In this document: positions 9,420-32,400 of the stretch, piece by piece
Position numbering within the stretch: position 1 is the first letter of the stretch
Layout of the letters: every line of letters starts with the position of its first letter
From: Heminiphilus faecis
Lineage (GTDB): Bacteria > Bacteroidota > Bacteroidia > Bacteroidales > Muribaculaceae
Reading direction: 5' to 3'
Assembly (NCBI RefSeq): GCF_008728965.1
Contig: NZ_VSMC01000024.1
Coordinates: 1-48,809 of the forward strand
Length of the DNA: 48,809 bases
Made by a program: the position numbers and the translations under genes
Notes under the pieces: model-generated
Database searches by the model: none
What the model was told of the DNA's origin: nothing
The model's input: only the letters and a program-made list of their open reading frames with translations

Positions 9420-9437
9420 TGTTATGCTACTTCTCTG

Positions 9438-9468: not shown

Positions 9469-9614
9469 TTTTACATTTAAAAGCGGCTTGATGCCATGTG
9501 ACGGGCTACATCATCAGAAGAACCGAGCTTAACATGAACGGTTAACCGGATTTTGCAGGTGGTCAGGTATGACTGTGCATGGTCTGTTTTACGGTAAGTA
9601 TACGGCGTTTGTGC

Positions 9615-14157: not shown

Positions 14158-14172
14158 AGCTGTGGTCTGTTT

Positions 14173-15309
14173 TTATTTGTCGCCGCATTTAGCTTCGGCA
14201 GCGACAGTATTAATAAACGGTTTAACCTGATAATCGCGGTCAAAAAGCAGGGGATATTCCTTGCGTCCGCGTACGGGCCAGTCATTTTTCCATGAGTCAC
14301 CGTCGCTTACTCCCCATGCGGTCACACGGGTTATAACATCGGAATGCTTCATGAACAGACGCATGACATCGGCCATACGGTTATTCCACTTGGTGTCGAT
14401 ATCTTCAGGCAATCCGTCGGGGTATGGGTTGAGCTGCTTCTGGTAAGCGGTTGTATCGGATACGTTGGCTCCTTGGTTCACGGTTGGAAGGGCGCTCATG
14501 TCCCATTCTGTAATCATGACTTTGCAGCCGGTTCCGGCAAAAGCTTCCAGTGACTCTTCGAACTCGTTCAGATCGGGATAATCCATGCCCATGTGCGACT
14601 GCATGCCGATGGCGTCGATGCGGATACCGCGCTCTTTCATGCTATTGACCATCTTGACGACAGTGTTGCGGCGTCCCGGCACGTTCATGCCGTAGTCGTT
14701 GTAATAGAGTTCGGCGTCGGGATCGGCTTCGTGAGCATATTGGAATGCCAACGGTATGAATTCCTCTCCGAGTATACGGTAGAAACCGCTGTTACGGTAA
14801 CTTCCGTCCTCGACAATGGCCTCGTTTACGACATCCCATCCGTGTACGCGTCCTTTATAACGGCCCACGATGGTGTGTATATGATCGCGCAGACGTGATT
14901 TAAGCGTTTCGGCGTCAACGTCGTTGCCGTTTTCATCGACAAGAAACCACGGTGAGCATTGTGAATGCCACACAAGGCAGTGTCCGATGATAAACATGCC
15001 GTTGTCCTCGCCTAACTTGACAAATGCGTCGGCGTCATCCCAGTAGTATCTGTTCTCTTCAGGATGTATATTGGCGGATTTCATGGCATTTTCGGCCACG
15101 ATGGAGTTGAAGTGCTTCAAGGCTGTAGCCTGTCCCATAGAGTCGCGACCCGAAACCTGATGAACATTCAGCGCCGTGCCCATGAGGAAGCAGTCTTTGA
15201 AACTGTCTTTAAGTGTAGGTTCGGCCGCTGTTTTTTCGGCACACATGTAGAATGTTGATGACAGGGCCACTACGCCCGATAAAAGCATTAATTTTGTGAT
15301 TTTCTTCAT
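14173..15309 (-). CDS. GH10 endo-beta-1,4-xylanase, single domain
   Basis: This 378-residue exported enzyme has a signal sequence with a possible lipidated Cys23 (the lipobox FYMC is atypical). The (beta/alpha)8 barrel contains GHCLVWHSQ, the acid/base Glu163 in DVVNEAIV and the nucleophile Glu268 in MITEWDMS. There is no CBM. No acidic residues follow the Cys, unlike the surface lipoproteins of this locus, so a periplasmic role on imported xylo-oligosaccharides is likely. It follows the symporter gene by eight bases. Confidence 0.94.
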   Translation of the reverse strand: MKKITKLMLLSGVVALSSTFYMCAEKTAAEPTLKDSFKDCFLMGTALNVHQVSGRDSMGQATALKHFNSIVAENAMKSANIHPEENRYYWDDADAFVKLGEDNGMFIIGHCLVWHSQCSPWFLVDENGNDVDAETLKSRLRDHIHTIVGRYKGRVHGWDVVNEAIVEDGSYRNSGFYRILGEEFIPLAFQYAHEADPDAELYYNDYGMNVPGRRNTVVKMVNSMKERGIRIDAIGMQSHMGMDYPDLNEFEESLEAFAGTGCKVMITEWDMSALPTVNQGANVSDTTAYQKQLNPYPDGLPEDIDTKWNNRMADVMRLFMKHSDVITRVTAWGVSDGDSWKNDWPVRGRKEYPLLFDRDYQVKPFINTVAAEAKCGDK

Positions 15310-15317
15310 GATTTTAT

Positions 15318-16751
15318 TTAATTGTCTGATTTATGACGGTTTTCAATCTCTTTATTTATCGTGTCTATACGGTCGTCGTCAAGATCATATTTTGATATTA
15401 TAAATATGGCTACAACGAGCAGTATGGCAGGGATGACCGATACGAGCCAAAGTATACCTTGTTCGGCAAGCGGCGACTGTACGTTGTCGGATGCGTTGAA
15501 GTCGACAAACGCAAGCACGAGGCCGGGAACCACTCCGCCAAGAGCCATGCCAGCTTTATAGAAGATGCCGGTAAGGGCGTTGACGATGCCGGAGATGCGG
15601 CGTCCGTGGGTATATTCACCATAAGATATGACTTCAGGCACAAGCGCCCACATGTAGCCTGTAGCTACAATGACGCCGGTGGATTTTACGAACTGTGCCA
15701 CATACACCAGCCACATGTGTTCTTTGAGTGCGTCGACCATGGAGATGAGGTAAAGAAGGCCCATGCCCACTATAGCCGTGACAAGAAATATGTAGAACAT
15801 GCCTTTCTTGCCTACCATGCGCTTTATGGAAGGTATCATGGGCATGAAGATGAATGCGGGTATCGAGCCGAGGCCCATGAATATGGAAAGTTCTTCGGCT
15901 GTGCCGTGGAGATTGTAATTGATGTAATATGCTCCTGCCGAGTTGCCTATTGCCATCATGGCGAATGCCGTGATAAAGAAGAATGCGAGTATGCGCAGGG
16001 GCTTGTTGCGTACAAATTCAAGCCAAAGGTCAGATACTTTGACGTTTTCTGTCTCTTTCTTGTCCATGACCACGCGCTCTCTGCACTGCGAGAAGCAGAA
16101 GAATAGCAGGGCCAGACCTATTATGCCGTATATGGACATAGTGATGAACCATGCGGAGTCACTTGACGATAGGTCGGAGGTTTCCGAGGGGTCGAAAATC
16201 TTCAGGATGATAGGTATACCCATACCTACCGCGAGGCCGCCCACGTTGGCCATGAACATTCTCACTGAAGTAAGAATGGTTATTTCGTCTGTATCGCGTG
16301 TCAGTGACGCGTTGAGCGCTCCATAGGGCACATTGACAAGAGTGTAGCACATCGACAGCCCCACATAGGTTATATAGGCATACAGAAGCGAGCCTGAGAA
16401 GCCGTTCCAGAAGCACAGTAGGGCGAAGCCTGTAAGCGGTATGCCGCCGAGCACCAGATATGCGCGGTATTTGCCGAGTTTAGGGTCGTGCTTGTCGACG
16501 AAAGTGCCTACGAGCGGATCCCAGATGACGTCCACGATTCTTACGATGAGAAACATTATGGCCGCTACGCCGGGATCGAGACCATATACATTGGTATAGA
16601 AGAACAGCAGGTACATGCTGATCGTCTGGTAGATAAGATTCTGGGCGAGGTCACCCGACCCGAATCCGATGCGTTGCATCCAGCCAAGTTTGTAGAAGCC
16701 TTTGCTCTGTGCTTCGGTATTATTTACATTCATAGTCAGTTGTGATTCCAT
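15318..16751 (-). CDS. GPH-type sugar:cation symporter (major facilitator superfamily)
   Basis: This 477-residue inner-membrane protein with about 12 transmembrane helices has the features of glycoside-pentoside-hexuronide symporters: RIVDVIWDPLVGTFVDKH near residues 47-64 and NVPYGALNASLTRDTDE near 140-156. Proteins of this type carry xylosides and uronosides. In this locus it most likely imports short xylo-oligosaccharides or aldouronates from the periplasm for the cytoplasmic GH43. The gene lies between the esterase (19 bases) and GH10 (8 bases). ATG at 16751 is used; 16733 is also possible. Confidence 0.9.
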   Translation of the reverse strand: MESQLTMNVNNTEAQSKGFYKLGWMQRIGFGSGDLAQNLIYQTISMYLLFFYTNVYGLDPGVAAIMFLIVRIVDVIWDPLVGTFVDKHDPKLGKYRAYLVLGGIPLTGFALLCFWNGFSGSLLYAYITYVGLSMCYTLVNVPYGALNASLTRDTDEITILTSVRMFMANVGGLAVGMGIPIILKIFDPSETSDLSSSDSAWFITMSIYGIIGLALLFFCFSQCRERVVMDKKETENVKVSDLWLEFVRNKPLRILAFFFITAFAMMAIGNSAGAYYINYNLHGTAEELSIFMGLGSIPAFIFMPMIPSIKRMVGKKGMFYIFLVTAIVGMGLLYLISMVDALKEHMWLVYVAQFVKSTGVIVATGYMWALVPEVISYGEYTHGRRISGIVNALTGIFYKAGMALGGVVPGLVLAFVDFNASDNVQSPLAEQGILWLVSVIPAILLVVAIFIISKYDLDDDRIDTINKEIENRHKSDN

Positions 16752-16770: not shown

Positions 16771-18486
16771 TTATTTCTTTATTTCGTTATGTTTTATTAC
16801 GGCTTCGACTACACGGTGGCCTACGGTCTTCTTGTCAAGCGGATGTATGTCGTTCCACTCTCCGAGGTCACTGTTTGGCACAAGGTAGGCATTGTGGGTG
16901 GACTTGGCCGCTTCAGCCTGATTGCGGCGCATTTCAGCCCATGCCGCACGTCCGCCGCGGTCGTCTTTATGCAGGAAGTCGGCCAGCTCCACTATGTAGA
17001 ACGGCATGTCGCGGTCATTGAAATCGGCGCGCCACGAGTCCATCAAAGTCTTGAGCATGTATGTGTATGAATTGCGGGTGTCGACGTTGCTCTCTCCCTG
17101 ATACCATACCACTCCGTTTACCGGGTAGTTGATGATAGGATGTATCATGGCATTGTACAGTACTGCGGGTATATAGTTGAACGATACACCTCCCTGTACA
17201 GGGGGCACGACGGCACCGCGGTGATATTTCCATGCGCCTTCGAGATTTATCTCCTCGTCGCCGGCTATGAGCTTGTAGGGCTTTTCAGGCACGAAATTAG
17301 CTCTGCCTCCGTTGCTGAACAGGCGTATGGTTATCTGGTTGTCGCCCTCTTTAAGCAATCCTGCGGGTATGGGATATTTACGGGGCGGATACTGGTAGGA
17401 TACGGTTCCGACAAAAGTGCCGTTGACATATACCGAATCGGCGTCGACTATGCAGCCCAAGCGTAGCAGTCCCGGCTTGCCCGCCATCGAGGAGGGGAGC
17501 GATACGGTTTTGCGGAACCAGTGTGAGCCGTTGACCGGATTCAGGCCGTCGGTGGCCCATCCGTCGGCGGCTTTCCAGCCGCAATGTATGTCGTCGCCGG
17601 CTATAGTGCCGTCAGTGACAGAACCTGAGGGTATTTCAACCGTAGGCCAGTCGGAGTCATCAAAAGCGGGTTCATACCATTTTACCGCATCATGAAGGCC
17701 CGGGTCGGTGGCATATAGCAATGACTGACGGCGTGCCGAACTTTCGCCGGCGAGCTGGTTTATGCGGTTGCGGTAGGCGTCATCCTCATATATGCGTTTT
17801 TTATTTACAAGGCCGGGAAATTCGGCAAGACGCTCTTCCTTTATCCAAGATTCTATGGGGGTGCCTCCCCAGCTTGATCTGATTATGCCTACAGGTAGGC
17901 CTGTGCGTTCGTTAAGTTCTTTTGAGAAAAAGTAGGCAAGTGCTGAAAAAGCCATCAGTTGCTCATCGGTTGTAGGCTGCCATGTACAGTTTTTTACGTC
18001 ATCGAGCGGCTGGTGAAATTCGTATGCGTTGGGTACGTTGAAATGACGTATCTTGTCATTGCTGTATGAGGCTATCTCGTCGGCAAACATGTCAGTGACT
18101 CGTCCTACTGTCAGGTCTATGTTGGACTGACCGGAGAAGAGGTATACGTCGCCCGAGAGCACATTGTCGATAGTTATGTCATTGATTGTTATGGTGTAAG
18201 GCCCTCCGGCTTTTAGCTCGGAGTACTCGGCGCGCCATTGGCCGTCATCGCCGGCGGTGACCGATATGCCTTTGCGAGGTCCGACGGTTTTGTTGCGGCT
18301 GTCGGTGATTTTTACTGTCACAGTCTCTCCGGGGTCGGCTTTGCCCCACAGAACCACGGGATGTTCACGCTGCACCACCATGCCCGGCGACAGGATACGG
18401 GGCAAAGTCACTTTTGCGTCACATTCCATGGCTCCCATGTATAGCATGGCGAGGAGTGATGCGATATATTTTACACTATGTTTCAT
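16771..18486 (-). CDS. SGNH-family carbohydrate O-acetylesterase (sialate O-acetylesterase type)
   Basis: This 571-residue exported protein is annotated in many genomes as sialate O-acetylesterase. The nucleophile Ser121 lies in FSGQSNID, VWYQGESNVD is the oxyanion block, and Asp546-x-His548 lies in NDIHPLDK. A beta-sandwich jelly-roll of about 160 residues is inserted (about 270-420). The signal peptide precedes DAKVTLP. The xylan setting makes acetylxylan deacetylation the likely role; sialic acid is improbable. ATG at 18486 is chosen over an upstream extension. It is the first gene downstream of the internal promoter at 18531-18597. Confidence 0.87.
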   Translation of the reverse strand: MKHSVKYIASLLAMLYMGAMECDAKVTLPRILSPGMVVQREHPVVLWGKADPGETVTVKITDSRNKTVGPRKGISVTAGDDGQWRAEYSELKAGGPYTITINDITIDNVLSGDVYLFSGQSNIDLTVGRVTDMFADEIASYSNDKIRHFNVPNAYEFHQPLDDVKNCTWQPTTDEQLMAFSALAYFFSKELNERTGLPVGIIRSSWGGTPIESWIKEERLAEFPGLVNKKRIYEDDAYRNRINQLAGESSARRQSLLYATDPGLHDAVKWYEPAFDDSDWPTVEIPSGSVTDGTIAGDDIHCGWKAADGWATDGLNPVNGSHWFRKTVSLPSSMAGKPGLLRLGCIVDADSVYVNGTFVGTVSYQYPPRKYPIPAGLLKEGDNQITIRLFSNGGRANFVPEKPYKLIAGDEEINLEGAWKYHRGAVVPPVQGGVSFNYIPAVLYNAMIHPIINYPVNGVVWYQGESNVDTRNSYTYMLKTLMDSWRADFNDRDMPFYIVELADFLHKDDRGGRAAWAEMRRNQAEAAKSTHNAYLVPNSDLGEWNDIHPLDKKTVGHRVVEAVIKHNEIKK

Positions 18487-18530: not shown

Positions 18531-18597
18531 CAAAATTACTCAATAGCCGAGGGCTGAAAGGTACAATTATGTATCACAAATCTACAACTGCGTAACA
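18531..18597 (-). promoter_or_regulatory. Internal PUL promoter with candidate operator
   Basis: On the minus strand a perfect -7 box TAATTTTG (18538-18531) has no recognisable -33 element. Upstream are TGTTAC (18597-18592) and TGATAC (18576-18571), a direct repeat with a 21-bp period. The proximal copy starts 38 bp before the -7 box, almost the same geometry as in the susC promoter. This suggests activator-dependent transcription of the esterase-symporter-GH10-GH43-GH67 segment by the locus regulator. Confidence 0.55.
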
Positions 18598-18603
18598 TCA
18601 TGC

Positions 18604-20298
18604 TTATTTGTAGTCATAAAGTGTCACATGAAGCACCTGAAAGTCATCGACGCCTATACGCACATGACGCCCCTGATGGGTTTCGTCGCCGCAATAGCGG
18701 CGCACGCGCGACAGAGTGCCGTCAGGGTTGACCGATACCTCGTCGACGGTGCCGAGACCTATTCGGGAGCTTCCGTTCCATCCGCTTGCGGCCTTGCGGT
18801 CGCTGCCGGTGTTGAGGAAGCCGTCTTCTCCGAGAGTCTGCGTTACCGTACTTTCGCCGGTGTTTTCAAACTTCAATACTATGCCGCTGCCGGCTACTAT
18901 GTACTCTCGTGGAGCGAGCCTTATGACTACTCCTCCGGTCGATGGCCAAGCGGAACCGTCGGTAGCCCTCGGGTCCCAAGGCAGAGTGAAGTAGTGGCTT
19001 GCGGTTATCTTTATATCGTCGCGTGCAATCACACGCTCGGTCGAGTCGTTGTCAAAATACAGGCCGTTCATGGAGCCTTGGCCCTGATGTCTCGCCAATA
19101 TGGGCATCAGTTCAAGCAGTTTGGCATAGCCCTTGACTGCAGGTGCATCGGGTGAGTCGCTGCCGTTCTCGATTGAGAACGGGCTGAAGCCTATGGCGTC
19201 ATGTTCGCCGATTACGTAAAACGCTTGGGCCGCGTTTCCGTCAAAACGGCGTATCTCCGGTATAAACAAAGGATTGTCGACGGTGTGGTATTGTGCTACC
19301 CAGTCGGTGAAACCCTTGTCGTAAAGGTCGGGCGAAAGCATGTCGACCGACGGAGCGGCGGCATGCCATATGTCTTTCAGATGGGCGAGAGGACCGGCCG
19401 AAGGATACTCGCCGGGTTTGCGCCCTCGGCTGTTCATGGCTGCATTGACATATAGAGGCCGGTCAATTACGGCACGCGCGCATTGAGCGAGCCGCTCCAC
19501 GTAAAGGGCATAGTTCCACGCCATGAAGTATTCGTCGCTGTATATGTCTTCGCCGAATACATCGTGCCAACTGCCCGAAGTCTTCATGCCGTTGTCGCGC
19601 CATCGCGCCGCCAACTGCGGATGAAGTGATGTCTTGTGTTTTTTGAGATGGTCGATAAGCGCCGTTGGAACACCCTTGTCATAAGCGGTCTGTGCCGCCG
19701 GAGAATAGTCTCTCGGGCTCTCGAGCATGCCTATTTCATTTTCTATCTGTATCATGAGCACTGTGCCGTCGGTGTCGCGGTTGGCTACATGCTTCAGCCA
19801 GCGTGTAAACGCGCGGCTGTCGGCTTTATACACATTCTCGGAAAATGCGCTCGCGATTTCAAGAGGTTTTCCTGCTGCGGTGCGGGCGCGGGGATATTTG
19901 CGGTAATCTTTCTTAAACCACTCCGGTGCATAGCAGCTCATGGAATTTTTCCATGCGCCGAACCAAAGAAATACTATTTTCAGATTATTTTTGCGCGCTT
20001 CATCAATCGCTGCGTCTACGAGTGAGAAGTCATATTGTAGCTCTGAGGGCTCTATCATGTCCCAATAAACCGGCACAAGCACCGTGTTGAGGTTCATGCG
20101 CTTCAGTTTGGGAAATATACGCTTTATATCGGCCTCCGATGAAGCCGAGCTATTGCCGAGTTCTCCTCCGATGATGATAAACGGTTTGCCGTCGACAGTG
20201 AGCTGAGTGGCAGCGCCATGTTTAACCAGCCGCACGTTGCCGGCATAAGCGGCAACTGAGAGACATAAGGCTATTGACATCAAAAATAATCTGTGCAT
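18604..20298 (-). CDS. GH35 family glycosidase with DUF5597 domain
   Basis: This 564-residue exported protein has a signal peptide ending near AYAG (residue 20). The TIM-barrel has the acid/base Glu188 in QIENEIG and the probable nucleophile Glu348 in FIPEIRR. The C-terminal part (about 390-564) matches the DUF5597 domain that accompanies this GH35 branch. GH35 enzymes are mostly beta-galactosidases; in a xylan locus it may remove galactose side groups or act on another exo-linkage. It lies just after a strong terminator and no consensus promoter is visible for it, so its expression may depend on read-through. Confidence 0.85.
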   Translation of the reverse strand: MHRLFLMSIALCLSVAAYAGNVRLVKHGAATQLTVDGKPFIIIGGELGNSSASSEADIKRIFPKLKRMNLNTVLVPVYWDMIEPSELQYDFSLVDAAIDEARKNNLKIVFLWFGAWKNSMSCYAPEWFKKDYRKYPRARTAAGKPLEIASAFSENVYKADSRAFTRWLKHVANRDTDGTVLMIQIENEIGMLESPRDYSPAAQTAYDKGVPTALIDHLKKHKTSLHPQLAARWRDNGMKTSGSWHDVFGEDIYSDEYFMAWNYALYVERLAQCARAVIDRPLYVNAAMNSRGRKPGEYPSAGPLAHLKDIWHAAAPSVDMLSPDLYDKGFTDWVAQYHTVDNPLFIPEIRRFDGNAAQAFYVIGEHDAIGFSPFSIENGSDSPDAPAVKGYAKLLELMPILARHQGQGSMNGLYFDNDSTERVIARDDIKITASHYFTLPWDPRATDGSAWPSTGGVVIRLAPREYIVAGSGIVLKFENTGESTVTQTLGEDGFLNTGSDRKAASGWNGSSRIGLGTVDEVSVNPDGTLSRVRRYCGDETHQGRHVRIGVDDFQVLHVTLYDYK

Positions 20299-20314
20299 AT
20301 GCGTGAGATTTTGT

Positions 20315-20354
20315 TAAAAAATACGAGGGGAGGGAAAATCGGTCCTCCCCTCGT
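20315..20354 (-). terminator. Intrinsic terminator inside the PUL, after the GH10-CBM gene
   Basis: On the minus strand an 11-bp GC-rich perfect stem (20354-20344 pairs with 20333-20323) with a 10-base loop is followed by ATTTTTT. It lies between the GH10-CBM stop (20382) and the GH35 start (20298). It should separate the susC-susD-SGBP-GH10 transcript from the downstream enzyme genes or reduce their level. Confidence 0.87.
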
Positions 20355-20381
20355 TATGTATGTAATGTAACGGGTTACGGT

Positions 20382-22757
20382 TTATTCGGCAGGTGTGCCT
20401 TCTTCACCTTCATGAAGGTCTTTCCACTCTTCACCTTTGAAGTCGGTCGATACATCGTATCCGGCTATCGCGTCGCATACGCCCTTATAGGCTATTTTGC
20501 GGTTGTAGTCGCCGTCAAACAGGTTGGGCGCGTCGCCGGGCAGCCAGTATTCGTGCTCTTTCTTGTTGTCCGAGAAGCCCCATATGGTTATGGACGACTG
20601 CTGGGCCTCGGGGATGTTCTCGAAGTAAGAGGTGAGAATCATCTGATATGTGGCGGCTTGTTCGCTTAGCTGAGCTTCCGAGGGGGTTATGGTCTTGCCC
20701 TCCTCCACGCCGAACGCCACGTCGAGCTCGGTGATGCGTATGAGCTTGCCGGTCTGGGCCAGTTTCTTGAACATGGCGTCAACCTGCTCTTTGCTGATTT
20801 TGTAGTTGACGTGCATCTGGGTGCCGATACCGTCGACTTGACCGCCGTTTTGGTCGATGTAGTTTACAAAGCCGATGAGAGCATCAAGTTTCGCCGGGCT
20901 TGTCTCGAGGTTGTATTCGTTGACAAACAGTTTGGCGTTGGGTGCATACTTGCGTGCGAATTCAAATGCCTTTACAGCGTAGTCCTTGCCGAGGTAGTAG
21001 CCCCAGTACCAGTGCTGGTTGCCTGCTTCTGAAGCCCAGTTGAGGGTGAGGCCGTCGGTCTCTGTCTCTACCGGCTCGGAGTCGGCCACGCCGTCATTGT
21101 TGTTGCTGCCGAACACGCCGTCGATACCGCGCCATCCGTTGCTGCCGTCGGCTATAGGCTCGTTGATTACATCCCATGCGTCAACACGGTCGCCTACATG
21201 CTCCATGATGGACTTGATCCACTGTTCCATAGCGTCGAGAAGTATGGTCTTCTTCTCTTCGGCGCTCTTCGGAATGTAGGTGATGCCGCCGGCGCGAGAT
21301 GCGTTCAGTATTGCAGGTGCGGGTTCGTCGGCAACTTCTGTTACAAGTACATTGTCGATATAGTAAGTGACTCCCGGCATATACCCGAAATCAAGATTGA
21401 ACTGCCACGTCGTAGTGCCTTCATTGAAGTCGCAACTGAACTTCTGCGGTATGACCTTTATGTAGGTCCACCCCGTCCCGGTCTCGAAGGCCTCGGTCCA
21501 GCCTGACTGATTTCCGGTCCAGTTCATCCACGGCCATTGGTTGGACATGTCGCCGGAGAATGAGAGACGGCCTTTTCCGGGAATATCGGATTTTACGTAG
21601 AACGAAATCTCCACATCGGCACCGGTCGTGTTGGGTATCTTCGGTGATATGACCTGAAGGTCCCATGCATTGCTGACAGCGTCGTTGGCAACCATTTTAA
21701 GCACGTTCTTGTTGCCTGAAGGAGCGTCGGCTAACTCTACGGTTTCTACACCACCGCTTGCATTGTTGATGGTCCAACCGGTTGTGCCATTGCTGAAATT
21801 ACCGTTTTCACATAGATTGGCGGGGCCTTCGTTTTTAATACCGAACTTGAAGTCATCGATATAGATATCAGCTTCCATTCCGCCGAATTGCAATCCTACA
21901 CGGGTCACGTCGGTCTTTTCATCTGACAAAATCACTTCGCCGGTAAACAATACCCAGTTTGAAGCAAGTTCACAGTTTGCGCCCCAGTCTTGGTTGCCGT
22001 TGGCTGTATTCTGATACATAAACTGTACTACCGCTCCGGGATTGTCTGTACGGGCCCAGAACTGGTAAGCGTATGTCTCGCCGGGTACGAGTGGGGTGTC
22101 AAGTGTCCAGAACAGTTGGTCATGCCAACTGTTTGTGCTAGTGTTGTCGACTGACAATTTAAGACATTGGTTGCTGTTGTAGCCGGGACTGACAAGACTC
22201 TTTGTATGGTGGCTCCAGCTGATCCATCCGTTCATGTTCTCCTCAAAGCCGGAGTTACCGATTACATTTACACATACATCATTTTGGTCAACAACTACCT
22301 TCATTTCGGGAGCGATGAGCGACTTGAGATAGGTCTGCGGCTGCTGGGTGTGCCAGAGCAGATTGTGGCCGTATAGCTTCATGCCGGCGGGCATTGCTGC
22401 CAGCACATTGTCTACTGTAGTGTAGTCGATGTTGCCGCTGGCGTTTACCATCACGCCCATCTTCATGGCGTTGCCGAGGGTGATGCCCGTGAAGTTGGCG
22501 TCGATCAGGGCTTTTGCGTCGGCATCGTCAAGATACATGTCGGCGCCTATACCGAGGGCAAGATTCAGATTTGGGTGATATTGGGCCACGTACTCCTTTA
22601 TAGGCTTGTAGAGTTTTAGTTTCTCGTTGTCGGTGAGGGGCAGCTCCGAGGCATCGACTGTGTTGTCTTTGTCCTGCCACTCCATTATCTGGTCATCGCA
22701 GCTTGCCATTATTGTGGCAAGCGCGATTGACGGAAGTATTATCTTGTTTAATTTCAT
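20382..22757 (-). CDS. Surface GH10 xylanase with tandem CBM4/22-type insertion
   Basis: This 791-residue lipoprotein (Cys20, followed by Asp-Asp, a surface-export-type signal) has a GH10 barrel interrupted by about 320 residues. The first part ends after GHNLLWHTQQP (about residue 137). Two carbohydrate-binding modules follow (about 160-315 and 320-480; each begins N-x-GFEE/NGNF and ends in a YIDDF/YIDNV strand). The barrel then resumes with acid/base Glu533 in DVINEPIA and nucleophile Glu677 in RITELDVAF. This architecture is known from Bacteroides/Prevotella xylan loci. It probably makes the first cuts in xylan at the cell surface. Confidence 0.94.
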   Translation of the reverse strand: MKLNKIILPSIALATIMASCDDQIMEWQDKDNTVDASELPLTDNEKLKLYKPIKEYVAQYHPNLNLALGIGADMYLDDADAKALIDANFTGITLGNAMKMGVMVNASGNIDYTTVDNVLAAMPAGMKLYGHNLLWHTQQPQTYLKSLIAPEMKVVVDQNDVCVNVIGNSGFEENMNGWISWSHHTKSLVSPGYNSNQCLKLSVDNTSTNSWHDQLFWTLDTPLVPGETYAYQFWARTDNPGAVVQFMYQNTANGNQDWGANCELASNWVLFTGEVILSDEKTDVTRVGLQFGGMEADIYIDDFKFGIKNEGPANLCENGNFSNGTTGWTINNASGGVETVELADAPSGNKNVLKMVANDAVSNAWDLQVISPKIPNTTGADVEISFYVKSDIPGKGRLSFSGDMSNQWPWMNWTGNQSGWTEAFETGTGWTYIKVIPQKFSCDFNEGTTTWQFNLDFGYMPGVTYYIDNVLVTEVADEPAPAILNASRAGGITYIPKSAEEKKTILLDAMEQWIKSIMEHVGDRVDAWDVINEPIADGSNGWRGIDGVFGSNNNDGVADSEPVETETDGLTLNWASEAGNQHWYWGYYLGKDYAVKAFEFARKYAPNAKLFVNEYNLETSPAKLDALIGFVNYIDQNGGQVDGIGTQMHVNYKISKEQVDAMFKKLAQTGKLIRITELDVAFGVEEGKTITPSEAQLSEQAATYQMILTSYFENIPEAQQSSITIWGFSDNKKEHEYWLPGDAPNLFDGDYNRKIAYKGVCDAIAGYDVSTDFKGEEWKDLHEGEEGTPAE

Positions 22758-22790
22758 AATTGTGTCGTTCTTGGGTTTTAACGGTTAATA

Positions 22791-24239
22791 TTATTCCTCC
22801 TCCTCATCTTCTGGATAGTCGGAAATAACGACGTTTTTGCAGGGTACTATACGCCAGTTGTCGACATAGATCTTGGTGTTGAACAAGTCTGACGGGAAGG
22901 CTACGTCGCCGAGCACGTAGTCGGTGTTGACGAAGCCCATGCCGAAGTTGGGGTAGGTTGCTGCAAGACGGTCGTCTATCACGGTCTGGAATGTTGGTGC
23001 CACGGCTTCTTTATCCTCAAGCAGGGCTTTGTATTTGCCGAACTCCGACAGGGGAATGGTGACTGTAGTCCAGCCTTCGGTAGTGAACGGCACGTTTTCG
23101 CCGTCTACTACCCATGGGGTAAAGAAAGCGGTCAGTTTGCCCGAACCGTATTCGTCGGAGTCGATGCCCTTGTACTGATAGTTGTTTACGAGGCATATCT
23201 GAATCTGGCCGGTGGAGCCCCACTTATTGGGTACGTAAATATCAAACTGGAATGCCACTTCGTCAAGCGGGGTATCGGCCGGAATGAGGGCGCTCATGCG
23301 TGCCCAGTTCTCGTATTCGAGATTGCCGTCGCCTACGGTCCAGCACTCTGTTACGCGGGGCTTGCCCGATACGATGCCGCCATCGGCGAGAAGACGGTCG
23401 GGTACTATCTGGCATACCTGTCCGTTGGTGCCGAGAGGATCTTGCACGAGATCGTTCTTCATGGTAGCGTTGCCGTCATCGTCGGTGCGGTCCTCGAAGC
23501 CTATCATTGAGCCGGCTTCTTTCCAACTCCAAGCGCCTTGCTGTCCTTCGGTGTCGAAGTCGAGGAGCATGCCGCGGCGCTCGTTGAAGTAGGCGGGTGT
23601 CTGCGATATGCCGTTGGCTCCTTCTGCGATGATGGCGCCTCCTGCAGTGAGTTCGGCGGGCATGGTGAAGGAGTACCATTCACCGTCCTCGTCAGAGTTG
23701 ATGCCTTCGGTGATCTCCACACCGCCGGGAAGGGTGATTCTGGTTATTTCCTGAAGGCCTGCGCCGAGTACCACGACCTGTTCGCCTGCCGCGGGGAGAG
23801 CATTCCGTATGCCCTTGATGCTGGGCGAGGCGGCGCGTATGGTGAAGTTGTGGACTGTCTCGGTGCCGTCCTTGACGAGACGAATGGTGTTGCGCACGTC
23901 ATCTTCGGCATCGGTGATGGGGGTCTTGCTGCTGAGTTGGATGAGCATGGAGTTGTCACTTACATAAGCGCGGTTGAAGTAGGTGTCGAAACCGTTGACA
24001 AACACTTTCTTCATGCCCATGAAACCGGAGCCCTCAAGACGTATGAGTTGTCCGAGGCGGGCAAACTCAACCTCTCGGTCGGGCACCGATGACTCGTAGT
24101 TTTCGAGATAGACCTTGTTAACCACGATAGGCTGGTCCTGATACTTTCCGTCGAAGTACTCGTCGTCATCGTTGCACGATACGAAGCCGGCCGACAGAAG
24201 CGCTACCACGGAGAGCCATATATATTTTAGATTTTTCAT
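22791..24239 (-). CDS. Surface glycan-binding protein (SGBP, IPT/TIG plus xylan-binding domain)
   Basis: This 482-residue lipoprotein has Cys22 followed by NDDDE, a typical surface-export signal of Bacteroidetes. Residues about 40-220 look like two IPT/TIG Ig-like domains (for example VNKVYLENYES and IKGIRNALPAAGEQVVVLGAGL). The C-terminal half (about 225-475) resembles the glycan-binding domain of SGBP-B proteins, with many aromatic residues. It should hold xylan at the surface next to SusD and the GH10 xylanase. The start at 24239 is chosen because it begins the signal peptide. It is 21 bases after susD. Confidence 0.87.
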   Translation of the reverse strand: MKNLKYIWLSVVALLSAGFVSCNDDDEYFDGKYQDQPIVVNKVYLENYESSVPDREVEFARLGQLIRLEGSGFMGMKKVFVNGFDTYFNRAYVSDNSMLIQLSSKTPITDAEDDVRNTIRLVKDGTETVHNFTIRAASPSIKGIRNALPAAGEQVVVLGAGLQEITRITLPGGVEITEGINSDEDGEWYSFTMPAELTAGGAIIAEGANGISQTPAYFNERRGMLLDFDTEGQQGAWSWKEAGSMIGFEDRTDDDGNATMKNDLVQDPLGTNGQVCQIVPDRLLADGGIVSGKPRVTECWTVGDGNLEYENWARMSALIPADTPLDEVAFQFDIYVPNKWGSTGQIQICLVNNYQYKGIDSDEYGSGKLTAFFTPWVVDGENVPFTTEGWTTVTIPLSEFGKYKALLEDKEAVAPTFQTVIDDRLAATYPNFGMGFVNTDYVLGDVAFPSDLFNTKIYVDNWRIVPCKNVVISDYPEDEEEE

Positions 24240-24260
24240 ATCTGTTGTCAATAAGTAAAA

Positions 24261-25949
24261 TTAGTTAAACAAATCGGCGGGGGTGACTTCGCGTTCGCCG
24301 AACTCGTAGGAGACAGGAGTCTCGCTCAGGCGCGGGTTACGGCCGAGGTCTACGTCGGAGAGCGGGAACTGAAGGCTTGCTATGGTAGCGGTGGACACGT
24401 CGGTGGCGTCGGAAGTCTTGGCGTATTTGCAGGGCTCGCTTTCGTCATATTCGTAGCCGGCGTGGCGGTCCTGATGGTTGAGGTAGTTGACCACTTCGGC
24501 CTGCTGATAGTAGGCGCGGCGGAGCAGGTCGTACCAGTATTGGCCTTCAAATGCGAGCTCTATACGGCGCTCGTAGTGGATGTCGTCGTAGTCGATCTTG
24601 TTTTTGGCAGGCATGCCGGCGCGGGTGCGTACTTGGTTGAAATACTCGAGGGCAACGGCGTCGGATGTCGATGCGGCGTTGCCGAGTATGGCTTCGGCAA
24701 GGTTTAGGTACACTTCCGCAAGGCGCATCATGTAGGTGTTGACGCCGCTGGACTGCTTGTAGCTCACGCCGTTGTCGTCAAATTTGCCGAGCACGTGCTT
24801 CTTCACATGGCAGCGTTTTTTGTAGGCATTGTCGTCCACTTCGGTCACTCCTACTGTGTAGCCGCCGTTTTTCTTGTTGAATTCGGGATAGAATTCGCCG
24901 TATGTGGTGACTGTGTAATGACGGCGGTCGGTTTCTGCCGGGTCGTAGGTGCGTATTATGTCATATGACGCATAGGTGGCGTTGCCCCATCCTGCGTCAT
25001 CGACCATCGATGACCAGCCGAAGAAAGCCGAAATAGGATTGTGGCATCCGTCGGCACCGCTTCCGTTAGGACCGGCTATCCATTGCAGCTGGAATACCGA
25101 CTCCCGATTGTTGTTCCATGTCTTTACATCAAACAGGTCACCGTAATTGTCCATAAGGCTGTAAGGCCCTTCCATACATTTGACGGCCGCTTTCTTGGCG
25201 AGGTCAAGGTAATATGTGTTGCGGGTTCCGCGGTTGAAGTCGGTGGCTATGTTGCTTCCGTCGTATGCGCCGTCGGTGGTAAGTCCGGCCATGGACAGGT
25301 AGATTCTCGACAGTAGGCCGTAAGCGCTGTAGCAGGTGACGCGTCCTTCATTGGCTTGCGACTTGGGCAGATTGGCGGCTGCATACTCAAGGTCGCGGAT
25401 GGCAAACTCTATGACGTCGGTTACGCGATGAGGAGGCACTACATAGTTGCCTACCATAGCCGAGGTGTTTTCGTAAAGTACGGCGCGGTTCCAGATGGAG
25501 CCGATGTACCAGTAGGCGATGCCGCGCATGAAGCGGGCTTCGGCTATGCCTTGCGACTTGGCGCCGGCGGTTACGGCCGGTCCGGAGAAGTCTTTTATGC
25601 GGTTTATGGTGTTGTTGGCCTGTGCTACTACGGAGTAGAACGACTTCCACGCGTCATGAAGACCGGGCGAACTTGCCTGTTCGGTAAGTTTGGTGTAAGG
25701 ATATATGTAGTCTGACCACGGTGCGTTGATGTTGTTGGAGCGGCCGTCGCCTACGGAGTAGTAGAACTTCTCGTTGAATCCCCACCATGCGTAGTTGTAG
25801 AGAGGATAGGTTGTGGCGCTTACCGCCTCGTCGCTGTCAAGGAATGTCTGGTCACTCGGTGACGATGTGCTCTGCGTGGTAAGGAAGTCATCGCATGAAG
25901 ACAAGGCGATACATCCGGCGGCCATTAATATTGCTATTTTTGTTTTCAT
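24261..25949 (-). CDS. susD: SusD/RagB family glycan-binding lipoprotein
   Basis: This 562-residue outer-membrane lipoprotein (Cys19, SSCDDFL) has the SusD fold: an N-terminal region beginning with STSSPSDQTFLDSDEAV, helical TPR-like repeats, and the conserved C-terminal RIELAFEGQYWYDLLRR and FPLSDVDLGRNPRL segments. It caps the SusC transporter and hands xylo-oligosaccharides to it. The gene is 18 bases after susC and is followed by the SGBP. The symbol is used in the sense of a homologue; the substrate is inferred from the neighbouring enzymes. Confidence 0.96.
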   Translation of the reverse strand: MKTKIAILMAAGCIALSSCDDFLTTQSTSSPSDQTFLDSDEAVSATTYPLYNYAWWGFNEKFYYSVGDGRSNNINAPWSDYIYPYTKLTEQASSPGLHDAWKSFYSVVAQANNTINRIKDFSGPAVTAGAKSQGIAEARFMRGIAYWYIGSIWNRAVLYENTSAMVGNYVVPPHRVTDVIEFAIRDLEYAAANLPKSQANEGRVTCYSAYGLLSRIYLSMAGLTTDGAYDGSNIATDFNRGTRNTYYLDLAKKAAVKCMEGPYSLMDNYGDLFDVKTWNNNRESVFQLQWIAGPNGSGADGCHNPISAFFGWSSMVDDAGWGNATYASYDIIRTYDPAETDRRHYTVTTYGEFYPEFNKKNGGYTVGVTEVDDNAYKKRCHVKKHVLGKFDDNGVSYKQSSGVNTYMMRLAEVYLNLAEAILGNAASTSDAVALEYFNQVRTRAGMPAKNKIDYDDIHYERRIELAFEGQYWYDLLRRAYYQQAEVVNYLNHQDRHAGYEYDESEPCKYAKTSDATDVSTATIASLQFPLSDVDLGRNPRLSETPVSYEFGEREVTPADLFN

Positions 25950-25967
25950 TAGTTTCGGATTTGGATA

Positions 25968-28900
25968 TTAGAATGATACGTTAAGACCGAAAGTGTAGAT
26001 GCGGGGCGAAGGATAACGACCGTAATCCACGCCGGTCATGAGGGCGTCGCCGTACATGGCACCCACTTCGGGGTCAAGACCTTTGTATTTGCTCCATGTG
26101 TGAACATTCTGGGCGCTGAAGTACACACGCACATTGTCGAGATAGAGTCGGCGTACTATATTGCGCGGTATGGTATAGCCGAGAGATATGTTCTGAAGCC
26201 GTATGTAGGACGCATCCTCCACCATAAGGTCGCTGAGGCGGTAGTTGCCGTTGGCGTCGCTGTTCTGCACTGCGGGCATGTCGGTGGATGCTGCGTTGGC
26301 GATGTAGATGTTGCGGTAGTCGGTGTCGGGAAGCGACGGGTCGATGACTGCAAACTTGGCAAAGTTGAGCGAAGAGCGTAGTATGTTGGAGTTCTGACGC
26401 GGATCTTCGATACGTATGCGGGTCATGTTGAGTGCCTTGTTGCCGTAGGAGCCCGAGAACATGATATTGAGGTCAAAACCTTTGTAGTTGAACGTGTTGC
26501 CGAAGCCCCAAGTGAATTTAGGCTCGGGATTGCCGATAAACGTGCGGTCTTTGTCATTGATGACTCCGTCTTTGTTGATGTCTTCGAAGATGTAGTCGCC
26601 GATCCATGTCTGATTGGGGTCGATGCCTTTGCCTTCGGGACGGGCTACTTCGCAGAGGTTGCCGTTGGCGTCATGATAGTAGAAATCTTCGGCTTTGTCG
26701 AAGCGTCCTATGACCTTGTATCCGTAGAACTGGCCGATAGGCTGGCCTACGACGGTCTTGGTGACTATATAAGGCGTTGAACCGATGCTGAAATCTTTTT
26801 CTACCGATGCCGATGCTGTGTCGAGTGACTTGACGCGGTTGCGGTTGAGCGAGAACACGAGGTTGGAGGTCCAAGTGAACTCACGGTTGGCTATGTTGGT
26901 GGTGTTAAGCGTAAGTTCTATACCTTTGTTTTCAATTGAACCTACGTTCATCCACGGGTTACTTGCGCCTCCGTAGCCTTCAGACCCGAGGAATGCCGGA
27001 AGCTGTACCTGCAGAAGCAGATTCTCGGTCTTTTTATAATACACGTCGGCTATGAACTCTATTCTGTTCTGGAGAAGGCCGAAGTCAAAGCCGATATTGT
27101 AGGATGACGTGGTTTCCCATGTGAGTTCGGGATTGGCGGTGTTGCCCGCGAGGACACCTACGCCCCACGGTGTTGTCTTGGACGACAACATGGACATATA
27201 GGCGTAATCGGCCACGTTCTGGTTACCGGTTTTACCCCAGCCGAGACGTAGTTTCAGTGAATTGATTTCGTCGATGCCTTTCATGAACTCTTCCTGTGAT
27301 ATGCGCCATGCCAGAGCCACTGCCGGGAACCAGCCCCATTTGTGGCCGTCGGCAAATTTTGACGAGCCGTCGCGGCGGATGGTGGCTGTCAGAAGATAAC
27401 GGTCGTCAAATGAGTAGAATGCGCGTCCGAAGAACGAGGCGATTGTATTGATGTTGCGTAAGCCGGTCGTGCTTGATTTGGATATGTCGCCAGCGCTCAG
27501 GTCGGGAGTGGTATTGGTGAGAAAGCCGGTGGCCTGACCCATTTGTGTCTCCCAATGGCTCTTTGACATTTCCTGACCTAACATGACGTTGATGTTATGT
27601 TTTTCTGCAAATGTGTTGTTGTAGGTGAGGATGTTGCGCCATGACCAGTACTTGGTATCGGTTTTGGTCCAGCGCGAAGTCCGGTGATCCTGAGTCTTTA
27701 TGCCGAACTGATAGTCTGGTTCGTAGAAATAGAACTTGTTGAAGTTGTAGTCGCCCGAGAGTTCGGTGCGCAGGGTCAGCCCTTTGTAAAGGGCGGCTTC
27801 AAGATATACGTTGAAGCGCAAGTTGACTTTCTTGTTGTTGTTGGTGATGAGCTCGGCAAGACCGAGAGGGTTTTCAGGCATCCATTGGTCTTCCGGACCG
27901 TCGTACGAGCCGTCGGGCGAGGTCACGGCTACCGTGGGCTGCTGAAGCAAAGCGCTCATGATGGTGTTGTTATCGGTGCCTACTGCTTGCTTAGACTCTG
28001 AAAATGAGAAATTTACTCCCCCCCTAAGCCACTCTTTTATCTGAGTGTCGACATTGGAGCGAAGCGAGTAGCGCTTGAAACTTGAACCTACCGCGATACC
28101 GTCCTGATCGAGGTAACCGCCGGAGAATGCCCATGTGGTACGCTCGTTTCCGCCTGATACCGATATGCTGTGGTTCATCATGAAGGCTTTGCGGAAAAGT
28201 TCGTCCTGCCAGTTGGTGCCTTTGCCGAGAAGGTCGGGGCGAACAAACGCACTGCTCGGAATCAGCAGGTTGCGCTCGATGGCGCGGTAGTTGTGATGTT
28301 CGGCATACTCCTGAAGGTTGAGCATGTCATACTGTTTGGGCATCTCCTGCCATCCGAGATAAGCGTCGTAGGTGACGGTGGCTTCGCCGGCTTTTCCACG
28401 CTTGGTTGTGATCATGATCACACCATTGCTCGCGCGCGAACCATATATAGCGGTCGCAGAGGCATCTTTCAGAATGTCCATCGATACAATGTCGGAGGGG
28501 TTGATCGACGAGAGCGGGTTGGACGACTCCGAGTCGGTGGCCGAGTCGATCACGACACCGTCGATCACGAAAATCGGCTGATTGGTGGCGTTAAGCGAGT
28601 TGATACCGCGTATACGGATTGAAGTCGAGGCTCCGGGTGTTCCGGAGTTGGCTTGTATCTGTACACCGGCGGCACGGCCCTGAAGCACTTGGTCGATACT
28701 TGTCGATATCGACTTCTTGACGGCGTCTTCTCCTACCGATACCACGGAGCCCGTGAGGTCGCTTCGTTTCATCTGGCCGTAACCTACCACGACCACTTCA
28801 TCAAGTACGGCCGCGTTTTCTTTCATGGTTACGTTGATGACGGTGCGTCCGTCTACGGCGATGTCCTGTGTGTTATAACCCACATAGGAGACTGTGATTG

Positions 28901-29120
28901 TACCTTTGGGAGCGATCGTAAGCGTGTACTTGCCGTCAATGTCGGTCGAAGTACCGTTGGACGTGCCTTTTTGCTGAACGGTGGCTCCGATCAGTGGCTC
29001 TCCCAATTCGTCGACTACTGTTCCCGAGACAGTGATGGTCTGGGAAAATGCCCATAGCGGTGACATAAGTCCTATTAATAATACCGCTATGAACCGCAGA
29101 TTAAAATCTGTGCATTTCAT
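25968..29120 (-). CDS. susC: SusC/RagA family TonB-linked outer-membrane transporter
   Basis: This 1050-residue protein starts with a signal peptide (to about residue 27, AFSQ), followed by a carboxypeptidase-regulatory-like domain (about 28-105; GTVVDELGEPLIGATV), the LDEVVVVGYG segment, the plug (about 115-235; VLQGRAAGVQI, SIRIRGINSL, DASATAIYGSRASNGV) and a 22-strand barrel ending in GLNVSF. It imports oligosaccharides made at the surface, powered by TonB. Its mRNA has a leader of about 160 bases. Only one SusC/SusD pair is present, where many Bacteroides xylan loci have two. Confidence 0.97.
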   Translation of the reverse strand: MKCTDFNLRFIAVLLIGLMSPLWAFSQTITVSGTVVDELGEPLIGATVQQKGTSNGTSTDIDGKYTLTIAPKGTITVSYVGYNTQDIAVDGRTVINVTMKENAAVLDEVVVVGYGQMKRSDLTGSVVSVGEDAVKKSISTSIDQVLQGRAAGVQIQANSGTPGASTSIRIRGINSLNATNQPIFVIDGVVIDSATDSESSNPLSSINPSDIVSMDILKDASATAIYGSRASNGVIMITTKRGKAGEATVTYDAYLGWQEMPKQYDMLNLQEYAEHHNYRAIERNLLIPSSAFVRPDLLGKGTNWQDELFRKAFMMNHSISVSGGNERTTWAFSGGYLDQDGIAVGSSFKRYSLRSNVDTQIKEWLRGGVNFSFSESKQAVGTDNNTIMSALLQQPTVAVTSPDGSYDGPEDQWMPENPLGLAELITNNNKKVNLRFNVYLEAALYKGLTLRTELSGDYNFNKFYFYEPDYQFGIKTQDHRTSRWTKTDTKYWSWRNILTYNNTFAEKHNINVMLGQEMSKSHWETQMGQATGFLTNTTPDLSAGDISKSSTTGLRNINTIASFFGRAFYSFDDRYLLTATIRRDGSSKFADGHKWGWFPAVALAWRISQEEFMKGIDEINSLKLRLGWGKTGNQNVADYAYMSMLSSKTTPWGVGVLAGNTANPELTWETTSSYNIGFDFGLLQNRIEFIADVYYKKTENLLLQVQLPAFLGSEGYGGASNPWMNVGSIENKGIELTLNTTNIANREFTWTSNLVFSLNRNRVKSLDTASASVEKDFSIGSTPYIVTKTVVGQPIGQFYGYKVIGRFDKAEDFYYHDANGNLCEVARPEGKGIDPNQTWIGDYIFEDINKDGVINDKDRTFIGNPEPKFTWGFGNTFNYKGFDLNIMFSGSYGNKALNMTRIRIEDPRQNSNILRSSLNFAKFAVIDPSLPDTDYRNIYIANAASTDMPAVQNSDANGNYRLSDLMVEDASYIRLQNISLGYTIPRNIVRRLYLDNVRVYFSAQNVHTWSKYKGLDPEVGAMYGDALMTGVDYGRYPSPRIYTFGLNVSF

Positions 29121-29285
29121 GAAAATAATGTTATTGGTTTTGGGATTAATTGTAAGTTCTTGATTGGTTTAAATTCTCGGTTGCCCGCATGAGTCATACG
29201 GGACTTAAACTTGTTGTTGTTTTATTGCATAAGCATGGGCAATTGGTTTAGGTTTGTGTATTGTTGTTAACGATTGATTACTGTG

Positions 29286-29351
29286 CAAATTTAAGGGTTC
29301 TTAAGATATTAGCTTGTGTTACGCGTAACAAAATTATTGGTTTTTGTAATA
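29286..29351 (-). promoter_or_regulatory. susC promoter with candidate operator
   Basis: On the minus strand a perfect -7 box TAAATTTG (29293-29286) lacks a good -33 element. Upstream are TATTAC (29351-29346) and TGTTAC (29330-29325), a direct repeat with a 21-bp period. The proximal copy begins 37 bp before the -7 box and is the left half of a 14-bp palindrome. An AraC-type dimer could bind here and recruit RNA polymerase. Confidence 0.6.
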
Positions 29352-29420
29352 CAATCTTAGTGTATGTACCATATATTATCACGATTGTAACAAATATGCT
29401 GTAAAACATAAAAGGACACT

Positions 29421-29477: not shown

Positions 29478-32400
29478 ATGAAATTTAAACACGTTCTTAT
29501 TGCAGTCTGCTTGACTTTTACCGCTGTTGTTTCGCCTGCACAACGTACAAAGCTGTATACTTCCAACGGTTTTTTGTCGAGTTGTCTTATCAACGATGTA
29601 TATCAGGACTGTAAAGGATATATATGGATAGCTACGGAGTATGGCCTGAACCGTTTCGACGGTACCCGTTTTACCACATTCAAGCACCTGCCCGGCAATG
29701 CTCTGTCGCTTCGTGACAATTATGTCCGTTCTATTCAGGAGGACACGCAAGGACGGTTGCTTGTAGGATGTATCACAGGGTTGATGGAGTTTGACCGTGC
29801 TACTGAAGAGTTCCATGATATACCGCTTATATATGATGACAGGCCTGTGCTGGCTCATGTGTCGGTCATTGCCCGGCTGTCAAATGGAGAGATATGGATA
29901 GGTACGGCCGGTTACGGAGTATTTCTTTATGACCCGTCGTCCGACACTGCCCGTAGCATGCATCATCTTTCACGTGCGGCGGGTAGTCTTCTTATAAGTG
30001 ACATATATGAAGATGTCACTCATGCCATATGGATAGCTACCGAGGACAATGGTGTGTGCCGTTACTATCCTGCCGGCGACCGTTCGCGGTCCTATAATCT
30101 TGAATGCTCTACGGTAGGCAATAAGGTGTCGGCCGTGATGGGGTCGTCTGACGGCGACGTATATGTCAGTTCGCTTGATGCGGGAGTTAGCCGGTTATGT
30201 TACGGAGCCGAAAATTTCAAGCCGGTTGCATATGCCGGCGGTGTACTTTCCGTAAAGACCCTTGCGGCTTATGGCGGCGCTCTTTATGCCGGTACCGAAG
30301 GTCACGGAGCCAAACTTGTGGCAGGTGATGTGCTGCTTGATGTATCCTCGAGTTCGCCGCTTGTCGAGTTTAACCGGTCCAAAGTGCACCGCATGCTTGA
30401 AGACCGCGACGGCAATCTTTGGATAGGCATGTTTCAGAAGGGTATTGCTCTGGTGCCTAAACTGCGGCATACGTTCGGCTATTACGGTAGGGCCGTACAT
30501 GAAAATCCCATAGGTGACGGCTGTGTCATGGCTGTGTATGTCGACAGCGCTCATAATCTGTGGGTAAGCTGTGACAACGACGGAGTGTATTGCCTTGATC
30601 AGGGAGGTCGGCGGATTGCATATTATCCAACACCAACTACGGTCATGTGTATTCTTGAGGATTCCCGGTCACGGATGTGGATCGGATCGTTTAATTCCGG
30701 CCTTTATAGGGTTGGCCCCAATGGCTCTCTTGATGAAGTGAGCCGATTTGCCGAAAAGAAGATATGCAGCATTGTAGAGGCCGGTGAAGGGGAACTTTAT
30801 CTCGGCACATTCGGCAGCGGACTTATCCGTTATGATCCTGATGACGATACTTCGAGTGAATTGTCATTCAAAGTCATGAAAAAGGAGGAGACTTCAATCG
30901 GAAACGACTGGATAAACTGTATGCTGTATATGCCCTCGGGGCATTTGTGGATAGCCCATTATCAGGGCCTCAGTTGTTATGACACACGGTCGGGGCGTTA
31001 TATGAGGTTTGGCGACAGTGAGAATCTTGTTGACGGAGTCATAGCTTATTCGTTGATGGAGGACCATAAGGGCAATATATGGTGTGGCACTTCCGGCGGC
31101 ATATATGTCTACGATGTCCTCTCGGATGAAGTGGTACACTACTCTTCAGAAGACGGTCTGCCCAACGACGTGGTATGCGGCTTGTGTGAGGATGACAGTC
31201 ATAATGTGTGGGCCAGCACTTACCATGGCATATCAAAGTTCATAGTCGGTGAACGGCGTTTTGTGAATTTTGACGCCGGCGACGGTCTGCAGGGCAACGA
31301 GTTTACGCATGGAGCTTACTGCAATGACGGGAAAGGAATAGTATATTTCGGAGGCACCGATGGCGTGACTTCCTTTCATCCGCTTGACATAAATGACAGT
31401 CAACGTGTTTATACTCCGGTTATAACCGGTTTTGACATTTTTTCAACTCCTGTCACCACATCTACTTTATCGGGAGGGCGCAAGGTTATAGACGCAGGGT
31501 TGTCTGAGGCCCGAAATGTGACACTGGCTCACTATGACAATACATTCAGCATAGCTTTTTCCACCTTTTCTTACGACAATCCCGACAAGCTTGTATATGA
31601 ATATCGTGTCAGGGAACTTGGTAAAGGCTGGCTGACTACGTCGCCGGGGCAGAGCCGGGTCACGTTCAATAATATGGCACCCGGCAACTATCGCTTTCAG
31701 GTGCGTGTGGCCGGCAATACGTCGCCTGATACATTGCGCGAGCTTAATATTAATGTGTTGCCGCCGTGGTACCGGTCATGGTGGGCTATATTGATATATG
31801 TGTGCGTGCTGGTGTTTGTCATAGTATGTGTACTGCATTTTTTACGGGATAAGGCCGCCGAGCATCGCCGGCAGCTTGAACGCCGGCAGTCCGAGCAGTT
31901 GCTTGAGGCCAAGTTGCAGTTCTTTACCAATATATCGCATGAGATACGTACGCCCATGACGCTTATTATAAGTCCGTTGGAGAAGCTGATAGCAAATTGT
32001 ACCGATGGCGGTCTGCGTGAAACGTATATGATGATATTTCGCAATGCCCAGCGCATACTACGTCTTGTCAACCAACTTATGGACATGCGCAAAATTGAAA
32101 AAGGGCAGATGCGGCTACACTTCTCCGAGACCGACTTGGTGCCTTATGTAGAGGAGGCCATGCGCTCGTTTGAGTATATGGCTTATGAAAATGATGTGAC
32201 GTTTACCTTTCATCACTCTGCGCCGAGCCTGCCGGCATGGATTGATGTGAACAATTTTGACAAGATACTGATCAATATACTGTCCAACGCATTCAAGTAT
32301 ACACCACGGGGAGGTCACATCGATATAACGCTTACAGAAGTAGAGGATTCGGGAGCTTTGCCGCCGCTTGACCGTTATGTGGAAATCGCGGTGTCGGATA

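Follow-up and report, generated by a model that had tools for sequence, protein, structure and literature searches.

The closest described relatives of the promoter element reported here are motifs predicted by comparative genomics for 16 of the 36 hybrid two-component system (HTCS) regulators of Bacteroides thetaiotaomicron, which the main text of that study presents as paired direct repeats with a mean spacing of 21 bp (Ravcheev et al. 2013; PMC3878776). The parts covered of a more recent paper report electrophoretic mobility shift assays in which the receiver and helix-turn-helix (HTH) portions of other HTCSs, BT4124 and BT4663, bind promoters of susCD homologues in a phosphorylation-dependent manner (mBio 2024; PMC11253607). 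The element described here lies in a 48,809-nucleotide stretch of the Heminiphilus faecis genome (the window, which is the entire contig C28; RefSeq NZ_VSMC01000024.1), at two promoters of a polysaccharide utilization locus (PUL) whose substrate, judging by its enzyme content, would be xylan: that of susC, from which an HTCS gene diverges, and that of a carbohydrate esterase gene. It shows the features by which HTCS operators are recognized, namely a pair of conserved sites on one strand, some 21 bp from each other, in front of a susC-type operon, an HTCS gene with an AraC-type HTH beside the regulated PUL, and a site kept upstream of orthologous genes. It thus resembles the published motifs, which are same-strand direct repeats at about 21 bp found beside AraC-type HTCSs and susC/susD; unlike them, as far as the main text without its supplementary motif files allows the comparison, it has four sites rather than two at susC and at 14 other promoters, with a -7 box at 36-38 bp, its half-site, belonging to a xylan clade, is TGT(T/A)AC, and one candidate operator recurs at separate loci. 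No description of a four-site HTCS array or of a xylan HTCS operator was found in the literature searched, whose coverage left out many subscription papers and supplements, and the portions covered of a review (PMC10766802) and of a paper on xylan in Vibrio (PMC12125979) added nothing decisive. While the direct-repeat type of HTCS motif was already known, the four-site promoter geometry and an operator common to separate xylan PULs are new.

The sites at the two window promoters, found in the sequence and, for susC, by an array scan, are the following.

29387..29392, minus strand: susC half-site 1, TGTTAC (sequence and array scan)
29366..29371, minus strand: susC half-site 2, TGGTAC, 21 bp after site 1 (array scan)
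29346..29351, minus strand: susC half-site 3, TATTAC, 20 bp after site 2 (distal copy of the original prediction)
29325..29330, minus strand: susC half-site 4, TGTTAC, 21 bp after site 3 (proximal copy of the original prediction)
29286..29293, minus strand: -7 box of the susC promoter, TAAATTTG, 37 bp from the start of half-site 4
18592..18597, minus strand: distal half-site of the esterase promoter, TGTTAC (sequence)
18571..18576, minus strand: proximal half-site of the esterase promoter, TGATAC (sequence)
18531..18538, minus strand: -7 box of the esterase promoter, TAATTTTG, 38 bp from the start of the proximal half-site

The original prediction, made from the sequence of the window, had described one pair of hexamers 21 bp apart at each promoter. 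All four of its hexamers lie where it placed them on the minus strand, its distances from the proximal copy to the -7 box hold, and the longer identity that it noticed, TGTTACGC, occurs once in each promoter. What it took for the susC operator is, however, the proximal half of a larger array: four same-strand half-sites of the type TGT(T/A)AC, starting at 29392, 29371, 29351 and 29330 (minus strand), follow one another with spacings of 21-20-21 bp, against two half-sites at the esterase promoter. Both -7 boxes are perfect copies of TANNTTTG, which together with the -33 element TTTG makes up the consensus of the Bacteroidales primary sigma factor. A good -33 element is indeed missing, as had been claimed, since neither promoter has a TTTG starting 18-27 bp upstream of its -7 box, the near match in the esterase promoter being TTTC at 18559-18556.

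The four-site layout recurs at other loci. All four half-sites, each with at most one mismatch, are present at 15 promoters in 24 loci that were mostly selected for having sites and that include other Bacteroidales. Spacings in these complete arrays are 21-21-21 (seven), 21-20-21 (six), 21-21-22 (one) and 21-20-22 (one), and the box lies at 37 bp in ten, at 38 bp in three and at 36 bp in two. A logo of 97 half-sites from 29 scored arrays, among them a few chance or opposite-strand readings, has A or G at position +6 in 87, a position that played no part in selection, and A at +14 in 63, while a scan of unit lengths found four-site chains only at 20-22 bp; because the loci were mostly picked for having sites, both are illustrative. 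TTTG occurs 18-27 bp before the box in three of 24 array promoters (no comparison promoter set was scored), in line with an activator replacing the -33 element. A motif-free four-site scan of 45 HTCS loci lacking the array ranked degenerate arrays high at L097, L208 and L224 and gave a small excess over control spacings. The flanks of L018 and L024 carry weak hints of four-unit arrays at 21 bp, made of other half-sites, before -7 boxes; other HTCS clades may use four sites too, a weak signal on which we make no claim.

The alignment of orthologous PULs suggested along with the original prediction, in which the repeat was looked for at 37-38 bp from the -7 box, came out in its favour on the susC side. 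Seven susC genes have a divergent HTCS at least 40% identical to that of the window (the window itself, G008, L067, L069, L070, L073 and L097), and upstream of six of them stand three or four good half-sites that share one register. Four, at about -99, -78, -58 and -37 from the box, are found in the window, G008 and L073, while L067, L069 and L070 keep the three distal half-sites in register and have lost the fourth. The seventh, L097, has a degenerate four-site array, beside which the HTCS matches at 6110-9577 fall in two reading frames; this could be an assembly error, or else a joint decay of regulator and operator. In G008, the nearest HTCS-linked relative, the layout is again 21-20-21 with the box at 38 bp, and G008 agrees with the window in 25 of 30 columns of half-sites and box, compared with 53 of 97 columns of spacer (Fisher p=0.0035), in a comparison that was not blind because the G008 array had been found beforehand. 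Six further susC orthologues (L071, L072, L074, L075, L076 and L102), with at least 6 kb of upstream sequence, have no orthologous divergent HTCS, and five of these six have no array with a box, L074 and L075 retaining a TGTTAC pair at 21 bp with no box in register. At L077 and L159 there is no array, the upstream DNA being too short to show their regulator, and L068 and L098 cover no susC upstream region. Among 66 paralogous SusC loci (L078-L146 without L097, L098 and L102), a single one, L146, has the composite of a half-site pair and a TANNTTTG box, in which the box lies 36-38 bp downstream of where the second half-site begins. As an observation in its own right, L076 (from Duncaniella muris), L071, L074, L075 and L102 have orthologous SusC, SusD and GH10 but no window-type HTCS within 6-10 kb upstream of susC; these loci may have lost the regulator or exchanged it for another.

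How far such sites could arise by chance in AT-rich intergenic DNA depends on what is counted. The bare pair means little, since TRTTAC-N15-TGWTAC has four matches in the 3.05-Mb genome against five for a reversed-pattern control. The composite of pair and box, by contrast with this, occurs twice in the window and in none of 200 dinucleotide shuffles of it. In the whole genome, searched at exactly 21-bp spacing with at most one mismatch, there are three composites with the box at 37 bp, of which contig C34 has two and the window one, and a single composite with the box at 38 bp (the esterase promoter), while the reversed control gives none at 37 bp. Chance gains some ground when the pattern is loosened or the search widened: with up to two mismatches the genome has three and four matches against three and one for the controls, and over 148 relatives the two-site pattern with box matches 22 times against 17 for the reversed control, which makes the pair and box at one mismatch a weak genome-wide detector by itself. 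Of these 22, 16 (a figure for the real matches, not the 17 controls) have within 1.5 kb a gene whose product is similar to one encoded by the two xylan PULs discussed here, three of the 16 being in H. faecis itself. The same pattern and box match 13 times in 25 genomes from the genus of G393, against three times for the control. Ten of these matches are next to genes similar to those found in the two xylan PULs, and a four-site array is present at seven of the ten. The empty shuffles, the shared four-site register in relatives and the behaviour of permuted hexamers (below) leave chance a scarcely credible explanation, already disfavoured at susC by the conserved register.

Arrays also track one group of regulators. 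Among 61 HTCS loci, from which duplicates had been removed and some of whose flanks are short or missing, 16 have either a composite or a chain of three sites no more than 1.5 kb away. Seven of the 61 had been added by hand to the 54 from similarity searches, four of them with arrays already known, and the fraction without them is 12 of 54. The same count for 359 permuted hexamers averages 0.29, five that overlap the real motif reaching 10-15 and the others at most three. The 16 array-bearing HTCSs are closer to the DNA-binding domain of the window than the 43 others (p=2e-5), and in a tree of DNA-binding domains all 17 array-bearing HTCSs, the window included, fall on one branch of 38 out of 60 (support 91/84, outside the starred branches). 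On that tree the array label changes eight times, compared with 15 for shuffled labels, of which none of 500 comes as low. This bears on the idea that the repeats are bound by another regulator of xylan genes, for example a Crp-like catabolite protein, a palindromic Crp-like motif being known upstream of sugar operons in Bacteroides, according to the main text of Ravcheev et al. (2013; PMC3878776). That motif is, however, an inverted repeat around TATGTT, whereas the window repeats stand on the same strand two helical turns apart, and the array is tied to one HTCS clade; we consider this idea very improbable. The only perfect inverted repeat noticed is a 14-bp palindrome, TGTTACGCGTAACA, at the proximal susC half-site (29330-29317); it was considered as the true operator and dropped, its right arm not being kept in G008.

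With conservation at susC and the association with one clade in support, the assignment of the repeats to the HTCS, with AraC-type activation, stands up well as predicted, and we regard it as highly likely that they serve the divergent HTCS as its activating operator. An HTCS operator is very probably real and conserved here, of the known kind and larger than the pair. Xylan oligosaccharides would be sensed in the periplasm, leading to phosphorylation of the HTCS, whose AraC-type domains would bind TGT(T/A)AC(A/G) half-sites that stand on one strand at a distance of two helical turns. The four half-sites at susC would leave room for two side-by-side dimers, the esterase promoter having two half-sites, and a regulator bound to the proximal site, 36-38 bp before the -7 box, would cover or touch the -33 position and would recruit polymerase to promoters without a -33 element. 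This is the picture of class II AraC-type activation. Some details of basal control may differ, given that the receiver of the window HTCS reads, by eye, NHIP in place of the S/CHIP contact motif. That motif, carried by BT4124 and BT4663 and found in 25 of 32 B. thetaiotaomicron HTCSs, is said, in the parts covered of the study, to make a contact that holds the DNA-binding domain off; deviation from it is no criterion of membership, the same study itself having deviating HTCSs (mBio 2024; PMC11253607).

The genes around these promoters, named from Pfam and NCBIfam matches, are listed below.

29478..33482, plus strand: HTCS, likely regulator, with Reg_prop repeats, Y_Y_Y, HisKA, HATPase_c, receiver and AraC-type HTH (Pfam)
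25968..29120, minus strand: susC (SusC/RagA), first gene behind the four-site array (Pfam, NCBIfam)
20382..25949, minus strand: susD, surface glycan-binding protein and CBM4-containing GH10 xylanase (Pfam)
16771..18486, minus strand: SASA-type carbohydrate esterase, first gene behind the two-site promoter (Pfam)
11145..16751, minus strand: back-end genes for a major facilitator superfamily (MFS) symporter, GH10, GH43 and GH67 (Pfam)

The HTCS gene is divergent from the PUL and by Pfam encodes all HTCS domains in one chain. On the minus strand the PUL runs from SusC, SusD, the surface glycan-binding protein and CBM4-GH10 through a GH35/42-like protein with DUF5597 to the SASA esterase, MFS symporter, GH10, GH43 and GH67; susD to CBM4-GH10 are probably the remainder of the susC operon, its limits being predicted. 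The best named match of the window SusC, at 80%, is from Duncaniella muris, which points to the Muribaculaceae as the probable family.

At the second, back-end operon the record is mixed. Four-site arrays with a box stand before the GH35-like gene in G012 and G011, three copies of TGTTAC and then TGTAAC precede the esterase in G006 (21-21-21, box at 37), and an array follows the CBM4-GH10 gene in L072 and L073 (four sites) and in L067 (three good sites). Counting the window, four of six genomes of the same genus with the esterase have a site before this operon. A blind test in another family, that of G393, covered 20 GH67 regions, taken from the 41 matches listed in rough order of score, and chains of at least three half-sites occur in four of them (one region being only 10.9 kb, at a contig end, and the stretches excluding the known susC-side sites of G393 and G492).

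Several findings sit badly with so simple an account. The window esterase promoter has only two sites; the esterase-side site of the original prediction, two half-sites with the box at 38 bp, is there in the window but has no copy in G008, whose matching operon is without an array, and in G010 none lies within 1.5 kb of the esterase. The strict composite is found in one of the 20 GH67 regions, which, taken with the four chains, means that an array before the back-end operon is not general, and its conservation outside the genus is weak. At L151, whose divergent HTCS is 37% identical, repeat pairs come without a box in register. L072 has the array although no orthologous HTCS lies within 10 kb upstream, and is a counterexample to strict linkage of array and HTCS. 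Finally, the branch that holds all array-bearing HTCSs also includes 21 with no array within 1.5 kb, so that membership is not sufficient for having one.

The same genome has a second PUL with such sites. At about 105-145 kb on contig C34 lies another HTCS, whose DNA-binding domain is 57% identical to that of the window; its first HTH has the identical string GLSRVHLHRKLKELTN, and its second differs at several positions. The accompanying arabinoxylan PUL comprises GH95, two GH43-CBM6, a putative esterase, GH97, GH127, a SASA esterase, GH10, SusC, one more GH43, and GH5, and the sites recur at three of its promoters: four before susC (21-21-21, box at 37), two before GH127 and, before GH5, three good sites of four with the box at 38. 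The last is the following feature.

L005 11970-12071, minus strand: GH5 array of the C34 PUL (TGTTAC, TGTAAC, TGTGTC, TGTTAC; 21-bp steps; box at 38)

That the window HTCS is the regulator is upheld by the evidence above, with the qualification that it perhaps shares this role with the C34 HTCS carrying GLSRVHLHRKLKELTN. A stronger version would make the array mainly or solely the operator of the C34 HTCS, with the window HTCS acting elsewhere. It draws on that common string, on the three C34 promoters, and on G006, G011 and G012, where a four-site array precedes the back-end operon and the best HTCS match is 38-39% identical to that of the window. It seems difficult to reconcile with the susC arrays adjoining a window-type HTCS in G008, L067, L069, L070 and L073, with the lack of any array within 1.5 kb of C34-type HTCS loci (L011, L013, L014, L155 and L158), and with the differing second HTH, and we think it unlikely.

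Keeping the window HTCS as regulator, the same operator at C34 together with an HTCS having the same first-helix string suggests that the two PULs probably form one coupled regulon with cross-talk. Operator sharing also appears to span unlinked loci in G012, where one contig covers 3.3 Mb: some arrays are found next to GH43- and GH97-like genes at 8-36 kb from the HTCS of that genome, and another precedes the back-end operon about 0.6 Mb away. A wider proposal is that a four-half-site operator for two dimers (21-20-21 or 21-21-21) is general in one xylan-sensing HTCS clade of Bacteroidales, and that two paralogous HTCSs read it, drawing separate xylan PULs and orphan back-end operons into one regulon. 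We put this forward tentatively, and would wager rather against it than for it, because the window and C34 lie on separate contigs and their second HTHs differ. If true, it would oppose the usual view of one insulated HTCS per PUL. A precedent of a kind exists in Bacteroides xylanisolvens XB1A, with its xylan loci PUL 43 and rPUL 70, where knocking out the HTCS of PUL 43 strongly lowered, directly or indirectly, expression of a separate set of GH10, GH67, GH2 and transporter genes (Despres et al. 2016; PMC4855328). As proposed here, the HTCS of one xylan PUL is tied to a separate xylan gene set; the organism is another one, and no operator motif was found in the parts of that paper covered. 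An operator common to separate xylan PULs offers a testable basis for such cross-regulation, so that the question of direct or indirect control could be asked at the level of DNA, and a four-site layout common to separate xylan loci would provide a readable code for PULs that are switched on together.

Between the CBM4-GH10 and GH35/42-like genes of the window, a perfect 10-bp stem (CGAGGGGAGG / CCTCCCCTCG) followed by a T run lies at 20353-20316 on the minus strand. It looks like an intrinsic terminator and, as it precedes the GH35-like gene, expression of that gene may depend on read-through past it.

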